Positions 31 to 9,457 of a DNA stretch of 11,389 nucleotides are shown here, one piece after another (position 1 is the first letter of the stretch; the number at the start of each line of letters is the position of its first letter). The notes beneath the pieces are model-generated. The model was not told the origin of the DNA. It worked only from the letters and a program-made list of their open reading frames with translations, and ran no database searches. This stretch comes from Planctomycetales bacterium (lineage in GTDB: Bacteria; Planctomycetota; Planctomycetia; Pirellulales; Thermoguttaceae), in NCBI GenBank assembly GCA_007127495.1, contig SKZG01000457.1:1-11389 (forward strand), given 5' to 3'. Made by a program: the position numbers and the translations under genes.

Positions 31-801
31 ATGGATTACCGACGCATTATCCCGTGTTTGGACGTGAAGAACGGCCGCCTGGTCAAGGGCGTCCACTTTG
101 TCGAGTTGAAGGAACTGGGCGATCCGGCCGAAAGCGCCGCCGCCTACAGCGAGGCGGGGGCCGATGAACTGGTCTTCCTCGACATCAAAGCCACGCTCGA
201 CAATCGACAAACCCTGCTCGACGCCGTGCGGCGAACCGTCGAGCGGATTTCCATCCCGCTCACCGTGGGCGGCGGCATCCGCTCGGTGGCCGACGTCGAC
301 GCGCTGCTCGAAGTGGGCGCGTCGAAGGTGTCGATCAATACAGCCGCCGTTCGCAATCCCGACCTGGTGCGCGAAGCGGCCGACCGTTTCGGCTCGCAGC
401 GCATTACCGTGGCCATCGACACGCGGAAGTCGGACGCATGCCCCTCCGGCTTCGAGGTCGTCGTGCGCGGCGGCACGGAAGGCGCCGGGCTCGACGCCGT
501 GGCCTGGGCGAAGCGGGTCGAGGCGCTCGGCGCCGGCACGCTGCTGCCGACCAGCATGGACGCCGACGGCACGCAGGCCGGGTACGACATCCCCATGACA
601 CGCGCCATCGCCGACGCCGTGCAGGTGCCCGTCATTGCCTCCGGCGGCGCCGGCACGCTGGAGCACCTGTACGAGGCGATTGCCGAGGGCCACGCCGACG
701 CCGTGCTGGTCGCCTCCATCGCCCACTACGGCACGTACACCATCGCCCAAATGAAGCAGTACCTCGTGGAGCGCGGCTGCAACTGCCGGATGAGTGCGTG
801 A
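31..801 (+). CDS. hisF: Imidazole glycerol phosphate synthase, cyclase subunit HisF
   Basis: HisF is the cyclase half of the cytoplasmic HisH-HisF complex. It uses ammonia from the HisH glutaminase to turn PRFAR into imidazole glycerol phosphate and AICAR, linking histidine and purine synthesis. The 256-residue product has the usual family length and starts with the typical [17 protein letters not shown] segment. The two catalytic aspartates are visible: D11 in CLDV and D130 in AID. The phosphate-binding turns of the half-barrels are also present, with GGGIR at 80-84 and ASGGAG at 203-208. The strand-6 motif reads [11 protein letters not shown], where many homologues have LLTSMDRDGT; this is a mild divergence. 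The ATG at 31 is the only start that gives the normal N-terminus, though its Shine-Dalgarno is weak. No other his gene is visible here, and hisF is followed by an unrelated toxin-antitoxin operon, so hisF looks like the end of its unit. Confidence 0.97.
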
Positions 802-956: not shown

Positions 957-985
957 TGGACATCCGCGACACGTCGGTCGATAAT
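957..985 (+). promoter_or_regulatory. Sigma70-type promoter of the hipBST operon
   Basis: TGGACA at 957-962 and GATAAT at 980-985 are separated by exactly 17 bp, and each differs from the sigma70 consensus at one position. Transcription would start near 992, giving a leader of about 93 nt before hipB. Operators 2 and 3 flank this promoter on both sides, the expected geometry for tight self-repression by a HipB-containing complex. The call rests on sequence match alone. Confidence 0.65.
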
Positions 986-1072: not shown

Positions 1073-1079
1073 AAGGAGG
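1073..1079 (+). promoter_or_regulatory. Strong Shine-Dalgarno that fixes the GTG start of hipB
   Basis: AAGGAGG stands five bases before the GTG at 1085. This near-perfect ribosome binding site supports the GTG as the hipB start, although GTG is a less common start codon. CCTCC at 1035-1039 in the leader could pair with the GGAGG of this site, so some translational control is possible but unproven. Confidence 0.75.
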
Positions 1080-1084
1080 GCCTC

Positions 1085-1321
1085 GTGGTATCGACGGTTG
1101 AGGAAAGCACGAAGACCGTTGGGGCCTTCGTCCGGCAGCGGCGGCGCGCGGCCAAGCTCAGCCAGCGCGAACTTGCCGAACTCGCGGCAGTCGGCACGCG
1201 TCTGGTCTCCGACCTCGAGCGCGGGAAGCCGACGCTACGGATGGACGCCGTCAACAGGGTCCTGTACGTGTTCGGCCGCATGCTCGGCCATGTAGAAGCA
1301 CCAAGAGAGGAAAACGGATGA
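1085..1321 (+). CDS. hipB: HipB-like Xre-family repressor and antitoxin component
   Basis: This 78-residue DNA-binding protein is the first gene of a hipBST-type operon. An HTH_3 (Cro/C1-type) domain fills residues about 11-66. The first HTH helix is around SQRELAELA (26-34) and the recognition helix around GTRLVSDLERG (37-47). GKPTLRMDAVNRVLYVFG is the typical HipB-like ending of the fold. The start is GTG behind a strong AAGGAGG. The stop overlaps the next start as ATGA at 1318-1321, which indicates translational coupling to hipS. In HipBST systems HipB binds DNA and the HipS-HipT pair, and it augments HipS in neutralising the kinase. Self-repression through the three upstream TTCCCGATCGGGAA palindromes is inferred. 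The product is short, with almost nothing after the HTH domain. Confidence 0.88.
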   Translation: MVSTVEESTKTVGAFVRQRRRAAKLSQRELAELAAVGTRLVSDLERGKPTLRMDAVNRVLYVFGRMLGHVEAPREENG

Positions 1322-1653
1322 AGCGACGCAGGGCTCAAGTCCGTCTTGCGGGCGAACCGGTCGGCACCCTCGAAGAAGCGGAAGGCCGGGTCCGGTTCAC
1401 CTATTCGCCGGAGTGGTTGGAACGCCCCGACGCGGCTCCGGTTTCGCTCACGCTGCCGCTGCGCAGGGAACCGTACGTTTCCCAGGAACTGCATCCCTTC
1501 TTTGAGAACCTGCTGCCCGAGGGCTGGCTGCTCGATATTTGCAGCAAGGCACTCAAAGTGTCGAAGGACGACCGCTTCGGGCTGCTTCTGGCGACCTGCG
1601 GCGATTGTGTCGGCGCCGTCGAAGTCATTCCCGTCGCCGTGGAGGACCGCTGA
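1318..1653 (+). CDS. hipS: HipS-like antitoxin (free-standing HipA N-terminal domain)
   Basis: This 111-residue protein corresponds to the N-terminal subdomain of HipA (Couple_hipA / HipA_N) without the kinase core. Recognisable stretches are VRFTYSPEWL (25-34), PVSLTLPLR (41-49), FFENLLPEGW (61-70) and DRFGLLLATCGDCVGAV (85-101). In the E. coli O127 HipBST system the equivalent HipS protein is the main antitoxin against the kinase HipT, whereas in classical hipBA this domain is part of the toxin. The ATG overlaps the hipB stop (ATGA) and has GAGAGG seven bases upstream. The gene ends two bases before hipT. The protein ends where the HipA N-domain normally ends, so it is a complete domain and not a fragment. 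Its antitoxin activity is inferred from synteny. Confidence 0.9.
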   Translation: MKRRRAQVRLAGEPVGTLEEAEGRVRFTYSPEWLERPDAAPVSLTLPLRREPYVSQELHPFFENLLPEGWLLDICSKALKVSKDDRFGLLLATCGDCVGAVEVIPVAVEDR

Positions 1654-1655
1654 CC

Positions 1656-2576
1656 ATGGCAACATGCGCGATATGCCTGGGCGGCACCGACGCCGATGCG
1701 GACTATCACAGCGCCTGCATCGAGGCACTGTTTGGCACCAACACGCTGCCAGCGATCGACGTGACTCGCAGTGAACTGCAAGAGATCGCCGTTGATATAT
1801 CCGGCAAGATGTCGATCTCCGGCGTTCAGGAGAAGGTTTCGTTGAAGCTGTCGGCCGGAAAGCGGGAACTCCTTGTTGCCACCAGAAACGGCCAATACAT
1901 CCTGAAGCCGCAGTCGTCGAGTTTCGCATGGTTGCCCGAGAATGAGCACCTGACCATGCGGCTGGCCGCTCTGGTCGGGATCGAGGTTCCGACGTTCGGT
2001 TTGGTTTGGCTCCGGGACGAATCGCCGGCCTACATCGTCCGGCGGTTCGACCGCACCGATGGAGGCGGGAAGCTCGCGGTGGAGGACTTCTGCCAGTTGT
2101 CAGGCAGGCCTTCACGGCAGAAGTACTCGGGATCGGCGGAGCTTTGTGTGCGCACGTTGCGCAAGTACGCCTCGGAGCCGCTCGTCCAACTGCGCAACCT
2201 GTACCGCCTTCTTTTGTTCGGCTGGTGGGCGGGCAACGGCGATATGCACCTAAAGAACTTCTCCTTGCTGACCCAGCCTGACGGAATTCGCCGCCTTGCG
2301 CCCGCCTACGATTTGGTTTGCACCCGGTTGGCACTTCCCAACGATTCGCTCGCTCTGCCGGTTGGCGGCAAGGAGAAGAATCTGACTCGGCGCAGTTGGC
2401 TCGACCTGGCCGCCTATTGCGAACTGCCGGAGAAGGCTGCGCGGCGAATCGTCGACGAGCAGATCCGTGCGCTTGAACCGTCGCTGGCGCTCATCGCCCA
2501 CTCCTTCCTGCCCGACCAGTTGAAGGAGCAATATGCAGGTGTCGTGCGGGAAAGCACTTCGATCCTGACGGCCTGA
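1656..2576 (+). CDS. hipT: HipT-like Ser/Thr kinase toxin (HipA C-terminal kinase core)
   Basis: This 306-residue kinase of the HipA family lacks the N-terminal subdomain, which the preceding gene encodes. Motifs in order: SIS at 53-55 followed by GVQEK (56-60), the Gly-rich loop where HipA and HipT autophosphorylate; YILKP with the ATP-binding lysine K84; ENEH (95-98); RRFDR (129-133); the catalytic loop GNGDMHLKN (193-201) with D196; and APAYDL (215-220) with metal-binding D219. All expected catalytic residues are present, so an active kinase is likely. HipA phosphorylates glutamyl-tRNA synthetase and E. coli HipT phosphorylates tryptophanyl-tRNA synthetase; the target here cannot be read from sequence. 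The N-terminus carries C4, C7, H18 and C21, a spacing that could hold zinc. The ATG at 1656 has GGAGGA about nine bases upstream. An in-frame start further upstream lies inside hipS and would add unrelated sequence. Confidence 0.94.
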   Translation: MATCAICLGGTDADADYHSACIEALFGTNTLPAIDVTRSELQEIAVDISGKMSISGVQEKVSLKLSAGKRELLVATRNGQYILKPQSSSFAWLPENEHLTMRLAALVGIEVPTFGLVWLRDESPAYIVRRFDRTDGGGKLAVEDFCQLSGRPSRQKYSGSAELCVRTLRKYASEPLVQLRNLYRLLLFGWWAGNGDMHLKNFSLLTQPDGIRRLAPAYDLVCTRLALPNDSLALPVGGKEKNLTRRSWLDLAAYCELPEKAARRIVDEQIRALEPSLALIAHSFLPDQLKEQYAGVVRESTSILTA

Positions 2577-2678: not shown

Positions 2679-3467
2679 CTACACCAGCCACCAATCGCCG
2701 CTTATAACAACGTACACGCCCAGCAGGAAGTTCGTCACGGCGTGGGCGGCAATGCAATCGCCGATGCTGCGCGTGCGCACCATCAGCCAAGTGACCATCG
2801 AGAACCAGACGGCCGCCGCGAACAGTTCCGCCGGGTGCATGAGCATGGGCACGACCGTGCCGACCACGACCGCCGTGGCGTCCACCTCGCCGAAGGGGAC
2901 GCGCCACCAGTTGCGGGCCATCGCGTACCGCATCACGAACGCGCGCAGGAAGAACTCCTCGACCACCGGCACGACCACCGCCAGGCCGAGCATCCGGACG
3001 GCCAGGTAACTCCACACGGCCGCGGGCCGGCCGGCATACTGCTCGAACGGGTTGAACGCGCTGCGTTCGCCCAGGCCGAGGATATTGCCCAGCCCGAGCG
3101 GAACCAACAGCCGCTCTTCAAGCTGCATTTTGCAGAGCCCTACCCACACCACCGCGCCCACCGCGCCCACCAGCAGCCCAAGCCAAGTTACCCGCCAAGT
3201 GAACTGCGTGTAGGCCGGCAGCACGGCGGCGACGGCGGCCAAGGTGAGCACGAGCTTCGCGGTGTACATCGCGGGATAGTAGCTGTACGGGATATTGAGC
3301 CCGAGGGCCGCGCCACCCGGCTCAGTCGGCGTCGGCTCCAGCGATCCGGCCAGCATGTACACGGCCAGCGGCAGGATGAACGGCAGCCAGGGTTGGCGCT
3401 CGAGCAGCCCGCGCCAGCCCGGCACCGGTTCGGGCGAGGAAGCCTTTCGCGTTTTTCGTTCAGACAT
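2679..3467 (-). CDS. CPBP-family intramembrane protease (CAAX prenyl protease-related)
   Basis: This 262-residue integral membrane protein of the CPBP (CAAX protease / bacteriocin-processing, Abi) family has about seven hydrophobic segments, near residues 28-42, 68-84, 93-112, 155-169, 198-211, 217-232 and 236-256. The family's glutamic-protease signatures are visible: EExxxR as E170, E171 and R175; a histidine at H211 (MLMHP); and HxxxN as H242 and N246. The overall layout resembles the CAAX prenyl protease-related group seen beside exosortase systems, but no exosortase gene is in this window. It is the last gene of the plsC-cdsA unit, 26 bp after cdsA. The start is uncertain: the ATG at 3467 is chosen, the ATG at 3476 is nearly as good, and neither has a clear Shine-Dalgarno. 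The substrate is unknown. Confidence 0.85.
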   Translation of the reverse strand: MSERKTRKASSPEPVPGWRGLLERQPWLPFILPLAVYMLAGSLEPTPTEPGGAALGLNIPYSYYPAMYTAKLVLTLAAVAAVLPAYTQFTWRVTWLGLLVGAVGAVVWVGLCKMQLEERLLVPLGLGNILGLGERSAFNPFEQYAGRPAAVWSYLAVRMLGLAVVVPVVEEFFLRAFVMRYAMARNWWRVPFGEVDATAVVVGTVVPMLMHPAELFAAAVWFSMVTWLMVRTRSIGDCIAAHAVTNFLLGVYVVISGDWWLV

Positions 3468-3493
3468 TGCGGGCATCAGGTTTGGGGGAGCGG

Positions 3494-4450
3494 CTACCAT
3501 TCCAACCAGAATTTGGTCAAGAGGAAGAAAATCGGCGCGGCGAAGCAAAGGGAGTCAATCCGGTCGAGCACGCCGCCGTGGCCTTCGACCAGGGTGCCAT
3601 AGTCCTTCACACCCCGGTCGCGCTTGATGGCCGACATGGTCAGCGAGCCGGCGAATCCCATCAGCGTGGTCACCAGCGCCATGAGCCCGGCCATCCACCA
3701 CCAGTGCCCGCCAAAAGGCGTCGCCCACCACAGCGCAGCCCCCAACAAGGTGGCCGTGCCGGCGCCACCGAGCAGACCTTCCCATGTTTTGTGCGGGTTG
3801 ATCGTGGGCACGATGACGTGTTTGCTTGGCAGTTGCGCCCAGGCATATTGAAGGGCATCGCCAAGCTGCGCGATGAGCACGAAGAACAGCAGAAGTCGGG
3901 TCCCGGCGTGCGGATCGCCGCCGGGCAGCGGCAGCATGAGCATGGCGGGTGCAAAGCTCAAGCAGTACACACAGATGAGCAGGCCGGCCTCGATCTTGGC
4001 CGTTCGCTCCAGGAATCGCTTGTAGTCGCCCGCCAACGCGATACGCGCCGGCAACAGCAGGAACGCGAACACCGGAATGAGGATGCTGTACAATTCGTAC
4101 CAATCCAGGGCCACCAGCACGAATTGCAGCGGGGTGATGAGGAAGAATACCCAGAAAAGCGTCCGGTGGTCGCCGGGGCGCGTGGGGGTCAGCGTGATGA
4201 ACTCGCGCAGCGCCCAAAATGCCAGCAGGCCGAACATGGCAACCGTGGCATTGGGGCCAAGCAGGAACGCGGCGGCCAACACCAGAAACAGCAGGAACCA
4301 GGCGCGCACCCGGTGGCTCAACGTGTCGAGAACGGCAACGTCCAGCCCGCTGTCCGCCCGGCTTTTCAGAAAGCGCACGGCCCCCGCCGCGGCCGCCAGA
4401 AGCACCAGCACTCCGCCAAGCAGTCCTAAAGTTCGCGCGTCAAGCACCAT
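3494..4450 (-). CDS. cdsA: Phosphatidate cytidylyltransferase (CDP-diacylglycerol synthase)
   Basis: This 318-residue polytopic membrane enzyme makes CDP-diacylglycerol from phosphatidate and CTP, the branch point for phosphatidylglycerol, cardiolipin and phosphatidylserine/ethanolamine. The family signature is complete near the C-terminus: S273, K276, R277, K282, D283, then GHGGVLDR with H291, D296 and R297. The cytoplasmic motif NPHKTWEG (218-225) is also typical. Roughly eight to ten hydrophobic segments span the protein, including 8-25, 50-64, 68-82, 98-115 and 120-136 before the core. The product is longer at the N-terminus than E. coli CdsA. It begins 17 bp after the plsC stop, so phosphatidate formed by the upstream gene product is its direct substrate. 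Confidence 0.95.
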   Translation of the reverse strand: MVLDARTLGLLGGVLVLLAAAAGAVRFLKSRADSGLDVAVLDTLSHRVRAWFLLFLVLAAAFLLGPNATVAMFGLLAFWALREFITLTPTRPGDHRTLFWVFFLITPLQFVLVALDWYELYSILIPVFAFLLLPARIALAGDYKRFLERTAKIEAGLLICVYCLSFAPAMLMLPLPGGDPHAGTRLLLFFVLIAQLGDALQYAWAQLPSKHVIVPTINPHKTWEGLLGGAGTATLLGAALWWATPFGGHWWWMAGLMALVTTLMGFAGSLTMSAIKRDRGVKDYGTLVEGHGGVLDRIDSLCFAAPIFFLLTKFWLEW

Positions 4451-5129: not shown

Positions 5130-5224
5130 TGCCGCGGTCGGGGCCCTCCGGCGTGGTGGTACTACGAAGTCCTCTAGGTTACGGTCGGGCAAGGGGAGCC
5201 ACAAGTGCCTCACCCAACAATACT

Positions 5225-7105: not shown

Positions 7106-9457
7106 TCAGGTTTCTGCTTCGGCCGCCTGCCGCAGCCTGCGCGCCGTGTGGCGGAACTCCTCCAGGTCCATCTGCTTGATAAACACCAGACCGCGTGTGG
7201 CACGAATGAGTGGGCTGGGGTGTTCGAAGAACCACTCGCGGCCGAGGCAGGTCTTCAGCATCTGGTACTGTTCCACTTGGATCTGCTGCGCCAGGCCGCA
7301 GAACGGCCCGTCGTAGTCGAAGCTTGGAAACGACGCCTCGCGCTGCGAGATAAACGTGTTCAGGAAGGCGCTTTCCATCACGGAAAACATGTTCAGGGAC
7401 ACCGGAGCGAACACGTTGGCCTCGCTGGGGTGGAAACGATACCAGACGTTCCGGTAACCCCAAATGCGCACGTCGCGTTCGGCTTGGCGCGCGTACCGCT
7501 CGGTCGCTTCGTTGACGGCCTGCAACACTTTGTAATGGGTATCCGGACCGCTCCCTTCCGGGTCGAGCGCCACGGTGATGACGTCCGGCGCCACCTGCTC
7601 GACGAGGTGGAGCACGGGTAGCACGTCGCGTTCCACCGTCGGCGTCGGTGTAAAAATATCGCCGGTGTAGAAGCCGAGTCGGAGGTGATGGATATTCGAC
7701 GACTGCCAACCAAAATATCCCCAAAGGCACTCGGCCTCCCATTCGCGGCACATGCCTTTAAGGCGCTGGATGTTTTCGGGGTCTTTCTTGCCGGGGTAGA
7801 CCGTGCGGAAGTAATGGGCCAACTCCTCCATCCGATCGGCGATCGCGTGCAAGTCGCTCTCGTCGAAGACGGCAATCAGGTTGCGCAGCAGACGGCGGGC
7901 GGCGCCTTCATCACGCATGGACGCGTTATTCGCCGCCAGCCCGTCCAGGTACTGCCAGATGTCGCGATTGCGGCCCTGGCGATTGTCGGGGTCGAAATAC
8001 CCTCCGCCGTGCAAGGCGGCGCAGCCGGCCGTGGTGATGAAGCGGCGCAGGCCCTCGAGCTGCCCTTGCATGTAGCGATTGGTTACGGCCGTAAACCCGC
8101 TGGTCAGCGTCACAAAATGGTGGACATTGCTCGCGTTGCGCACGTTCCGCACGATACACGGCAAATAGCCGAGCATCAGGTCGTCGTGGTGCGGCTCGGT
8201 ATGCAGGAACCGCGTGCCTTCACACGTTCGGCTGCCGGCTTCAATCTTGCGAATCAACGTTTCGCGTACCTGGGCGGCCAACTCGCTCAGCGGCTCGCCC
8301 CGGCTGGTCAATGTGGCATGCGCCAGGTCGTTCGACTCGACGTCGGCGGGCGTCAGCTCCACCACCCGCTTGCGCTTCTCCAGGGCCAGGTCCACCAGGG
8401 TCATTTCCACTTGCTCGTCGGAAGCGCGTTCCTGCCGGGCGACCATCGCCTTCCGGCGGCTCCGCAGGCGCAGGGCGGCGCCCCGCGTTATATAGAACCG
8501 GGCGGCCGGGAGTTTGCGCAGCGCGCTGGCGGGAATCAGCACGCCTTCGGGCCCCTCGACGGCGTCCGCCACGACGCGCGCCTTGGCTTCACCGGCTGCG
8601 AAAATGATGGCCGTGCATTCCGGGTTGAAGGTGATCGTGCCCAGGCCGATGGTGATGACGTGGCGCTCGCGTGCGACCTCGATGCCCCCCAAGTCGGTCG
8701 CCGCGGCGGCCTGGGTTTCGTAGTTGGTGGCCATCAGGCGCGTGGTCGAATGGTGGTCGGAACCGCGGATATTGAAAGCGATATGCCCATCCGGCCCGAT
8801 CCCGCCGAGAAAGAACCCGATGCCGCCCAACTCGCGAATCCGATCTTCGTATTGCTGGCACCATTGGTCGATGCGGTGGAGGACCTGCTGCTGCACCCGC
8901 TCCTGGTCCGATACCGGGCGGCGGGTCCGCAAACTCAAGTCGACACGCTGGTCCGGCCATACCGAGGCCAGTGTCTGCCCGGCAGACAGCCCGATTTCGC
9001 CGCCATGGATCAACATCGCCTTGGCAGGATCGAGCCCAAAGCCGTCAATGTAAAACTTCTTGACGTAATAATAGAAACTATTCTTCTGCGACGGGTCGAT
9101 CGGGTAGAAATCGTCGATCTGCACGAAATGAAAGGTCCGCATGTCGGGCTTCCGGCCGGGATCGATCCCTGACTTCTCCAGCATGCCGCGCGTCTCGTTC
9201 GTTTCCCAGGTCGCCAGCAGGTGGGTCACCCAGTGGATGAAATACTCGGGCGTCTTACCGGTGGGCAAGGAAATGACGCCGCCCGGATGCTCGCCCGCCC
9301 ACTCGAGAAATCGCAGCGCCACCAACCGGCCCAGCGTGGGAAAATTGTTGACCGTAAGCACGGCCAGATGCTCGGTGGCCGGATAGATGGGCTCGAACGG
9401 CGATTCCGCCAGCGCGGCCTGTTCCACGGGGGTAAGCAGCAGCGAGGTACTTTCCAT
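7106..9457 (-). CDS. Glucosamine-6-phosphate deaminase-like / PIG-L deacetylase fusion
   Basis: This 783-residue two-domain protein has an N-terminal part (about 30-335) of the NagB sugar-phosphate isomerase fold: LPTGKTP (64-70) is the phosphate loop, QIDDF (113-117) matches the NagB catalytic-aspartate segment, and GIGPDGHIAFN (219-229) supplies D223 and H225, equivalent to E. coli D141 and H143. The residue aligned with E. coli E148 is I230, so the ring-opening relay is altered. K292 fits the phosphate-binding lysine. The C-terminal part (about 395-690) is PIG-L/LmbE-like: PHHDD at 422-426 is the metal-binding motif and GPDTHYKV (637-644) offers a second histidine, H641. PIG-L enzymes remove N-acetyl groups from amino sugars, so the fusion may deacetylate and deaminate the same metabolite. 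Similar NagB/PIG-L proteins are known from Bacteroides. The pathway role here is inferred. Confidence 0.88.
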   Translation of the reverse strand: MESTSLLLTPVEQAALAESPFEPIYPATEHLAVLTVNNFPTLGRLVALRFLEWAGEHPGGVISLPTGKTPEYFIHWVTHLLATWETNETRGMLEKSGIDPGRKPDMRTFHFVQIDDFYPIDPSQKNSFYYYVKKFYIDGFGLDPAKAMLIHGGEIGLSAGQTLASVWPDQRVDLSLRTRRPVSDQERVQQQVLHRIDQWCQQYEDRIRELGGIGFFLGGIGPDGHIAFNIRGSDHHSTTRLMATNYETQAAAATDLGGIEVARERHVITIGLGTITFNPECTAIIFAAGEAKARVVADAVEGPEGVLIPASALRKLPAARFYITRGAALRLRSRRKAMVARQERASDEQVEMTLVDLALEKRKRVVELTPADVESNDLAHATLTSRGEPLSELAAQVRETLIRKIEAGSRTCEGTRFLHTEPHHDDLMLGYLPCIVRNVRNASNVHHFVTLTSGFTAVTNRYMQGQLEGLRRFITTAGCAALHGGGYFDPDNRQGRNRDIWQYLDGLAANNASMRDEGAARRLLRNLIAVFDESDLHAIADRMEELAHYFRTVYPGKKDPENIQRLKGMCREWEAECLWGYFGWQSSNIHHLRLGFYTGDIFTPTPTVERDVLPVLHLVEQVAPDVITVALDPEGSGPDTHYKVLQAVNEATERYARQAERDVRIWGYRNVWYRFHPSEANVFAPVSLNMFSVMESAFLNTFISQREASFPSFDYDGPFCGLAQQIQVEQYQMLKTCLGREWFFEHPSPLIRATRGLVFIKQMDLEEFRHTARRLRQAAEAET

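Follow-up and report, generated by a model that had tools for sequence, protein, structure and literature searches.

Does a HipA-like kinase that is encoded in two pieces in a planctomycete genome belong to a working tripartite toxin–antitoxin (TA) operon and, if so, to which type? We addressed this question for an 11,389 nt stretch of Planctomycetales bacterium DNA (assembly GCA_007127495.1, contig SKZG01000457.1; called here the window), in which three genes had been proposed to form a complete, tightly coupled hipBST operon in a probable planctomycete. The host is a planctomycete; its assembly has 3.17 Mb and is 84% complete, with the window as contig 248. As far as sequence and structure model reach, the locus is shown to encode a predicted helix-turn-helix (HTH) repressor, a HipA N-subdomain as a protein of its own and a HipT with a mini-domain and a complete kinase core; three palindromic operators are grouped about a site that resembles a promoter. 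We consider it very likely that this is a chromosomal HipBST operon with a planctomycete-specific HipT lineage, acting as proposed below, candidate zinc site included. Related loci are given as L numbers, genomes as G numbers.

Gene products of the hipBST operon

The three open reading frames (ORFs) of the original prediction were all found intact, in the order hipB-hipS-hipT (Table 1). The hipS start overlaps the hipB stop by 4 bases and hipT begins 2 bases past the hipS stop. The hipB product matches Pfam HTH_31 (36.4 bits, cut-off 27), the hipS product matches Pfam Couple_hipA (106.9 bits, cut-off 22.5) as well as the NCBIfam HipA N-domain model TIGR03071 (113.9 bits, cut-off 27.8), and the hipT product matches Pfam HipA_C (173.4 bits, cut-off 30.5). 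The operon contains the only HipA_C match found in its own, 84%-complete genome.

HipS is HipA N-subdomain 1 encoded as a free protein. Since HipS matches the N-terminal and HipT the C-terminal part of HipA, the pair might be a full-length HipA (of a hipBA operon) interrupted by a frameshift or an assembly error, and one genome of the family does carry a fused HipA-like protein of 413 amino acids (aa) in one frame (L014). However, hipS has its own stop and hipT its own start in all nine other loci of the lineage with ORFs worked out, and tblastn gives the same hipS/hipT spacing for the tenth (L012). Furthermore, N-subdomain 1 is missing from HipT, whose N terminus carries an additional mini-domain, folded in the structure model and absent from HipA: in structure alignments the free Legionella and Escherichia coli proteins, HipT_Lp and HipT_Ec, start at model residue 1-2, while HipA starts at 29-36. 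Comparison of the window with L007 (HipT 71% identical) gave non-synonymous and synonymous distances, dN and dS, of 0.22 and 1.56 for hipT and of 0.19 and 1.29 for hipS; the low ratios, though with dS near saturation, indicate purifying selection on both genes. The split-HipA arrangement thus stood up to comparison with relatives. An interrupted HipA is strongly disfavoured, to the point of being extremely improbable, and HipBST is the right name, because the HipT mini-domain is absent from HipA and the genes of the relatives are separate.

Decay of the locus, with inactive genes kept by chance, would agree with the lack of a match in genus-mate G001 (86% complete), with the next downstream gene being merely a remnant and with broken hipT copies in relatives (L012, L033). 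In the window, however, the catalytic residues, the operators and the ribosome site are all intact and dN is low against dS. We regard decay as very unlikely and, judging from these sequence features, the operon is very probably functional.

HipT lineage and candidate targets

The claim that HipT has all catalytic residues was borne out. In an alignment of 112 rows, K84, D132, R133, N194, D196, H198, N201 and D219 do not vary, and R130 of the R130-x-D132-R133 motif is kept in all but one of the 111 other rows. The Gly-rich loop, RxDR, catalytic Asp and Mg Asp motifs are intact. Residues 51-55 form the sole stretch of at least three residues with predicted local distance difference test (pLDDT) values <50 in the HipT model, which is fitting for a movable loop. 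Residues 67-70 of HipS read P-E-G-W and align with E-G-W of E. coli HipS, whose Trp65 is reported to be wedged behind the HipT loop and to be required for neutralisation; the E. coli HipT loop carries the S-psi-S double serine (PMC10627512). The Legionella loop is S-V-Q, and I65/M66 are described in place of the HipS Trp (PMC10653801).

A tree of 54 HipT rows was built by a careful method with the mini-domain excluded. L011, L014, L052 and L100 were removed and L012, L027, L049, L053 and L055 were not entered (broken, duplicate or remote); HipA was left out of the last tree, and HipT_Lp itself is not on it. The window's HipT belongs to a planctomycete lineage of 10 rows (support 100/100). The others are a Bacteroidota/Oligoflexia lineage with the CCHC motif described below (25 rows, 100/99), a Legionella-type (Lp-type) lineage (13 rows, 99/95), an E. 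coli-type lineage (two rows, 100/100, both from one Aliivibrio plasmid) and four planctomycete rows outside the window's lineage (89/86). With the planctomycete lineage grouped with the Bacteroidota CCHC, the Lp-type or the E. coli-type rows, the approximately unbiased test values (p-AU) were 0.163, 0.354 and 0.351; none of these groupings is rejected.

A system of the HipBST_Lp type with the same target as in Legionella would agree with the p-AU of the Lp-type grouping and with HipT_Lp scoring best among solved HipT structures (191.7 bits versus 91.9 with HipT_Ec). However, the Bacteroidota protein L075 reaches 382.8 bits with HipT_Lp, because of which its lineage is called Lp-type, and a Bacteroidota CCHC-type protein has 167.2. 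The window's HipT falls outside that separate lineage and has S-I-S and E-G-W instead of S-psi-Q and E-G-I; CCHC is found in 0/13 Lp-type rows, though the HipS Trp is present in two of the 13 (L074, L093). We think the Legionella type unlikely here. Within Planctomycetota, L031, L032 and L035 are Lp-type hipBST loci (S-psi-Q, no HipS Trp, no CCHC, no such operators); the phylum therefore holds at least two HipBST types.

The original prediction had also named TrpS as a possible target. A TrpS-targeting system like that of E. coli O127 would have the S-psi-S loop and the HipS Trp, both present in the window system; the grouping with E. coli-type rows is not rejected (with two Aliivibrio rows only), and the window's own genome has one TrpS, with KMSKS, the motif reported to be phosphorylated by E. 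coli HipT (PMC6581861). On the other hand, the sequence is remote from HipT_Ec by the score given above, and the branch of the Aliivibrio E. coli-type HipT measures 2.8 changes per site. KMSKS is shared by many synthetases, and because the motif is so general the window's TrpS is no evidence for or against this target. Legionella HipT is reported to be rescued by neither TrpS nor GltX (PMC10653801). With the window's HipT not clearly of the E. coli type, TrpS found no support here; a TrpS-targeting system is doubtful, and the reserve made in the prediction that the target may differ was sensible. The sequence comparisons place this HipT outside the Legionella type, not clearly in the E. coli (TrpS) type, and in a strongly supported planctomycete lineage of its own, a useful third point on how HipT kinases choose substrates.

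HipT mini-domain, operators and proposed mode of action

The paper on the E. coli system describes the HipT mini-domain as 'of unknown significance' (PMC10627512). In the window it carries C4-x2-C7-x10-H18-x2-C21 (CCHC); the model has pLDDT values of 93, 89 and 95 for residues 1-10, 11-20 and 21-30, and labels residues 3 and 10 as bridge and 19-26 as helix. Many zinc sites combine a CxxC with a following HxxC where a helix begins, and the N terminus looks like a small zinc-binding finger. An alignment was made from 68 of the 120 listed database matches (the window's own excluded) and 43 locus rows; all four residues are present in 65 and 31 of them, respectively. Among the 12 locus rows without the motif ten read C-T-S-G, one C-S-D-A and one gap-gap-D-A. 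C7, H18 and C21 are lost jointly in 12/12, which a metal site missing from some lineages would explain. Among tree rows the motif is present in 9/10 of the planctomycete lineage and in 25/25 of the Bacteroidota/Oligoflexia lineage. A single origin of CCHC was considered but is not shown: in the best tree without the mini-domain the Bacteroidota lineage stands next to four planctomycete rows that lack CCHC, while a tree that groups all CCHC rows and L022 is not rejected (p-AU 0.163).

The HipS Trp is present in 32/32 pairs with CCHC versus 6/19 others, and in 0/9 pairs whose loop ends in Gln; the pattern follows lineage, with only two independent pairs on starred branches. HipS residue 94 (codon 1597-1599) is Cys in 31/32 CCHC pairs versus 4/19 others. 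In the literature searched, with supplementary files outside its scope, no zinc site in HipT is described; the eLife paper has zinc only in a reference.

The operon was also said to have its own operator set, and three perfect copies of TTCCCGATCGGGAA are indeed packed into 158 bases upstream of hipB, next to the predicted HTH repressor. A search for sigma70-like promoters found one upstream, versus a mean of 0.2 in shuffled sequence; this is a consensus match and no proof of a promoter. Elsewhere in the genome there is one exact TTCCCGATCGGGAA copy (contig C566) and one with one mismatch (C214), both inside ORFs. The operator pattern with up to two mismatches occurs in 27 places (three in the window) versus 12 for a reversed control, a count that may be too low, because CTAG, a tetranucleotide frequently scarce in bacterial DNA, is part of the control. 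As the copies on C566 and C214 are the only ones inspected among the 24 places outside the window, a wider HipB regulon is neither claimed nor rejected.

To compare relatives, 350 bases upstream of hipB were scanned with up to three mismatches in 15 planctomycete loci (L011, L028, L036 and L037, with no hipB found, were left out). Two to four sites occur in each of the 10 loci of the window's lineage (the window counted); among them are L065, with a deleted hipT core, and L022, with only two 3-mismatch sites. No site occurs in the three Lp-type planctomycete loci, two occur in L033 and a single poorer one in L034; shuffled upstream regions have 0.01-0.15 on average and at most two. Among Bacteroidota/Oligoflexia loci (34 asked, two without hipB), two or more copies of TATACCCGnnnAGGTATA with up to three mismatches, ~40 bases apart, occur in 22/24 of the CCHC type (missing in L025 and L097), and TATACCCGnnnAGGTATA at this threshold is absent from all eight non-CCHC loci. 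The CCCG...GG core of these predicted operators is common to both CCHC lineages. The Legionella HipBST operon is reported to have three spaced operators likewise (PMC10653801); therefore, repeated operators recur in HipBST. The set, kept in kind from Planctomycetota to Bacteroidota, offers a ready DNA-binding assay.

By analogy with E. coli and Legionella, a HipB dimer on the operators would shut the promoter and bring in HipT-HipS. HipS would bind to HipT and wedge its Trp70 in behind the Gly-rich loop, which would hold the loop out and block ATP binding, and HipT would autophosphorylate at S53/S55. On a shortfall of HipS, free HipT would phosphorylate a cellular protein and growth would stop. 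To judge from their co-conservation only, C4, C7, H18 and C21 may hold a zinc ion that shapes the mini-domain, a site lacking in Legionella-type HipT and in the E. coli-type HipT examined.

Several observations weigh against this interpretation. HipB scores 67.3 bits with the curated NCBIfam model TIGR03070 (couple_hipB), ~4 bits short of the cut-off of 71.65. The Trp step is not universal, because Legionella HipS neutralises without Trp (PMC10653801), and the tree has three changes each for CCHC and for the HipS Trp, too few for a test of association. Some of the loci in which operators were counted had also served to derive the operator consensus, which favours it; the shuffled regions and the non-CCHC loci are the control. 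As to zinc, C4 persists in the C-T-S-G rows, and among the 68 database rows one is without C7 alone (CSHC) and two are without C4 alone. Within the planctomycete lineage, C7, H18 and C21 are gone from L022, which nevertheless keeps E-G-W and its two poor sites. L011 (G050:C287), with a HipT 54% identical to the window's, has no match for hipS or hipB upstream and none for the mini-domain; it is possibly an orphan or decayed copy.

A further-reaching idea, speculative and in our judgement improbable, is that the mini-domain is at root a zinc knuckle and works in the planctomycete and Bacteroidota lineages as a zinc/thiol switch releasing the kinase. Metal loss or oxidation would loosen the HipS-HipT (or HipB-HipT) contact, HipS Cys94 could be part of such a switch, and E. 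coli- and Legionella-type HipT would have lost it; if true, this TA family would answer directly to metal or redox stress.

Neighbourhood, distribution and known systems

Table 1. Coordinates of the operon, its sequence features and its flanking genes in the window
Feature	Coordinates	Strand	Remark
hisF	31-801		flanks the operon on the hipB side
Operator 1, ATTCCCGATCGGGAAT	853-868 (core TTCCCGATCGGGAA 854-867)		perfect palindrome, extends to TATTCCCGATCGGGAATA at 852-869; same site in relatives
Operator 2, ATTCCCGATCGGGAAT	935-950 (core TTCCCGATCGGGAA 936-949)		just 5' of the -35 box
Sigma70-like promoter TGGACA-17-GATAAT	957-985	+	predicted; 10/12 consensus match, between operators 2 and 3
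Operator 3, TTCCCGATCGGGAA	998-1011		near expected transcription start
Shine-Dalgarno AAGGAGG of hipB	1073-1079	+	from sequence; five bases before GTG
hipB	1085-1321	+	Xre/HipB-type HTH repressor, 78 aa, GTG start; Pfam match, NCBIfam TIGR03070 just under cut-off
hipS	1318-1653	+	free HipA N-subdomain 1, 111 aa, probable antitoxin
HipS Trp70	1525-1527	+	aligned with Trp of E. coli HipS E-G-W (W65)
hipT	1656-2576	+	HipA-type Ser/Thr kinase core, 306 aa, probable toxin
HipT C4-x2-C7-x10-H18-x2-C21	1665-1718	+	candidate zinc site in N-terminal mini-domain, from alignment
HipT Gly-rich loop KMSISGVQEK	1806-1835	+	S53-I-S55, S-psi-S autophosphorylation motif of E. coli HipT
HipT Asp196 (GNGDMHLKN)	2241-2243	+	catalytic Asp, invariant; probable equivalent of HipT_Lp D197 by position
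HipT Asp219 (PAYD)	2310-2312	+	Mg-binding Asp, invariant; role by analogy to HipT_Lp D219
CAAX-protease-like gene	2679-3548	opposite to operon	flanks the operon on the hipT side

Downstream of hipT, 2613-2675 resembles the end, some 20 codons, of a gene for a right-handed beta-helix protein. Genus-mate G002 (72% complete), where the hipT 3' end lies at the contig edge, has this gene in full (433 aa), placed after hipT and before the CAAX gene; in the window most of it is missing. G001 keeps the CAAX gene with a peptidase-M20 gene next to it; no hisF match was found there (12,000 of 20,735 bases) and no clean empty-site boundary. At 2679-4450 (- strand) the CAAX-protease-like gene (TIGR03008, 93.4 bits, above cut-off) overlaps a phosphatidate cytidylyltransferase-like gene with no match on the G001 and G002 stretches holding the CAAX gene. 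Farther on, a 783-aa ORF (7106-9457, - strand) has no Pfam match at 1e-3; its GGIGPDGHIAFN stretch presumably resembles glucosamine-6-phosphate deaminases. No structured RNA was found at the Rfam gathering score. A phage or plasmid origin was rejected (matches in 1/50,697 phage records and in 634/72,556 plasmid records, the latter all at <60% identity), as was a defence system (weak PADLOC matches only, 14-23 bits).

Some related loci depart from the three-gene plan. In L012 / L065 (G017:C340) hipS and hipB are 74 and 76% identical to those of the window and hipT is without residues ~109-235, the kinase core: the antitoxin is kept and the toxin broken. In L027 (5001-5917; Arachidicoccus ginsenosidivorans, complete genome) hipT matches in two frames meeting at 5162 and is probably frameshifted, and two palindromes lie upstream of hipB. 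L101 (2695-4802; Aliivibrio fischeri plasmid pCG103-32) is a four-gene version, in which hipB-hipS-hipT is followed by a second HipT-like kinase with loop S-P-T, not S-I-S.

At least 7976 homologues were found at E <= 1e-20 (of 8000 database candidates scored), and among the 120 matches listed several are named planctomycete. HipT matches of all types occur in 11/392 sampled Planctomycetota genomes at E <= 1e-40 (own included) and in 54/296 genomes of the Bacteroidota sample at E <= 1e-30; 12/60 relatives (own included) match at E <= 1e-3, some weakly or in part. CCHC-bearing lineages matter, as by the Bacteroidota count, with all HipT types included, they are not rare, and their motif gives a concrete candidate answer to the question of the mini-domain's nature. 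The expectation that this locus would widen the known range of HipBST held in part. A planctomycete hipBST with its own operators is added; HipBST outside Proteobacteria was already in print, HipBST_Lp homologues being described as widely distributed outside Gammaproteobacteria, particularly in the FCB (Fibrobacteres–Chlorobi–Bacteroidetes) superphylum, with 86 representatives from diverse taxa (Lin 2023, PMC10653801). Gerdes 2021 reports one HipT clade of 48 (PMC8262856). Planctomycetes are named in the main text of neither survey, the supplements lying outside our scope. The literature searched yielded no experiment on a planctomycete HipBST, although some of these proteins may already be in supplementary lists, and no solved or tested member of the planctomycete or Bacteroidota CCHC lineage. 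As judged from sequence, what is new here is a so far uncharacterised HipT lineage whose mini-domain is probably a zinc finger, together with an operator kept across many relatives; the range itself is only partly new.

The HipBST systems that we found characterised are the E. coli-like ones and that of Legionella. The HipBST of E. coli O127:H6 (PDB 7ab3-7ab5; PMC6581861, PMC10627512) is 27% identical by structure alignment, and one HipT examined of its type, from Aliivibrio, has no CCHC, unlike the window's. HipBST_Lp of Legionella pneumophila (PDB 8ezr, 7vkb, 7wcf; PMC10653801, PMC9325769) differs by the loop and HipS residues described above, where the window has S-I-S and Trp70, and the mini-domains of Lp-type rows resemble CPITY...YS..GL where the window has CCHC. 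The HipBA systems of E. coli K-12 and Shewanella have, like the window, a kinase core, a HipS-like N-subdomain and an HTH partner; according to the papers, they differ in having HipA as a single polypeptide that lacks the mini-domain, with HipB as the antitoxin. The Bacteroidota/Oligoflexia operons (CCHC rows among L023-L025, L051, L054 and L070-L099) are like the window in the CCHC motif, the HipS Trp and the CCCG/GG operators, whereas they form their own lineage, the loop is mostly S/T/A-psi-T/P and the operators lie ~40 bases apart and have TATA ends.
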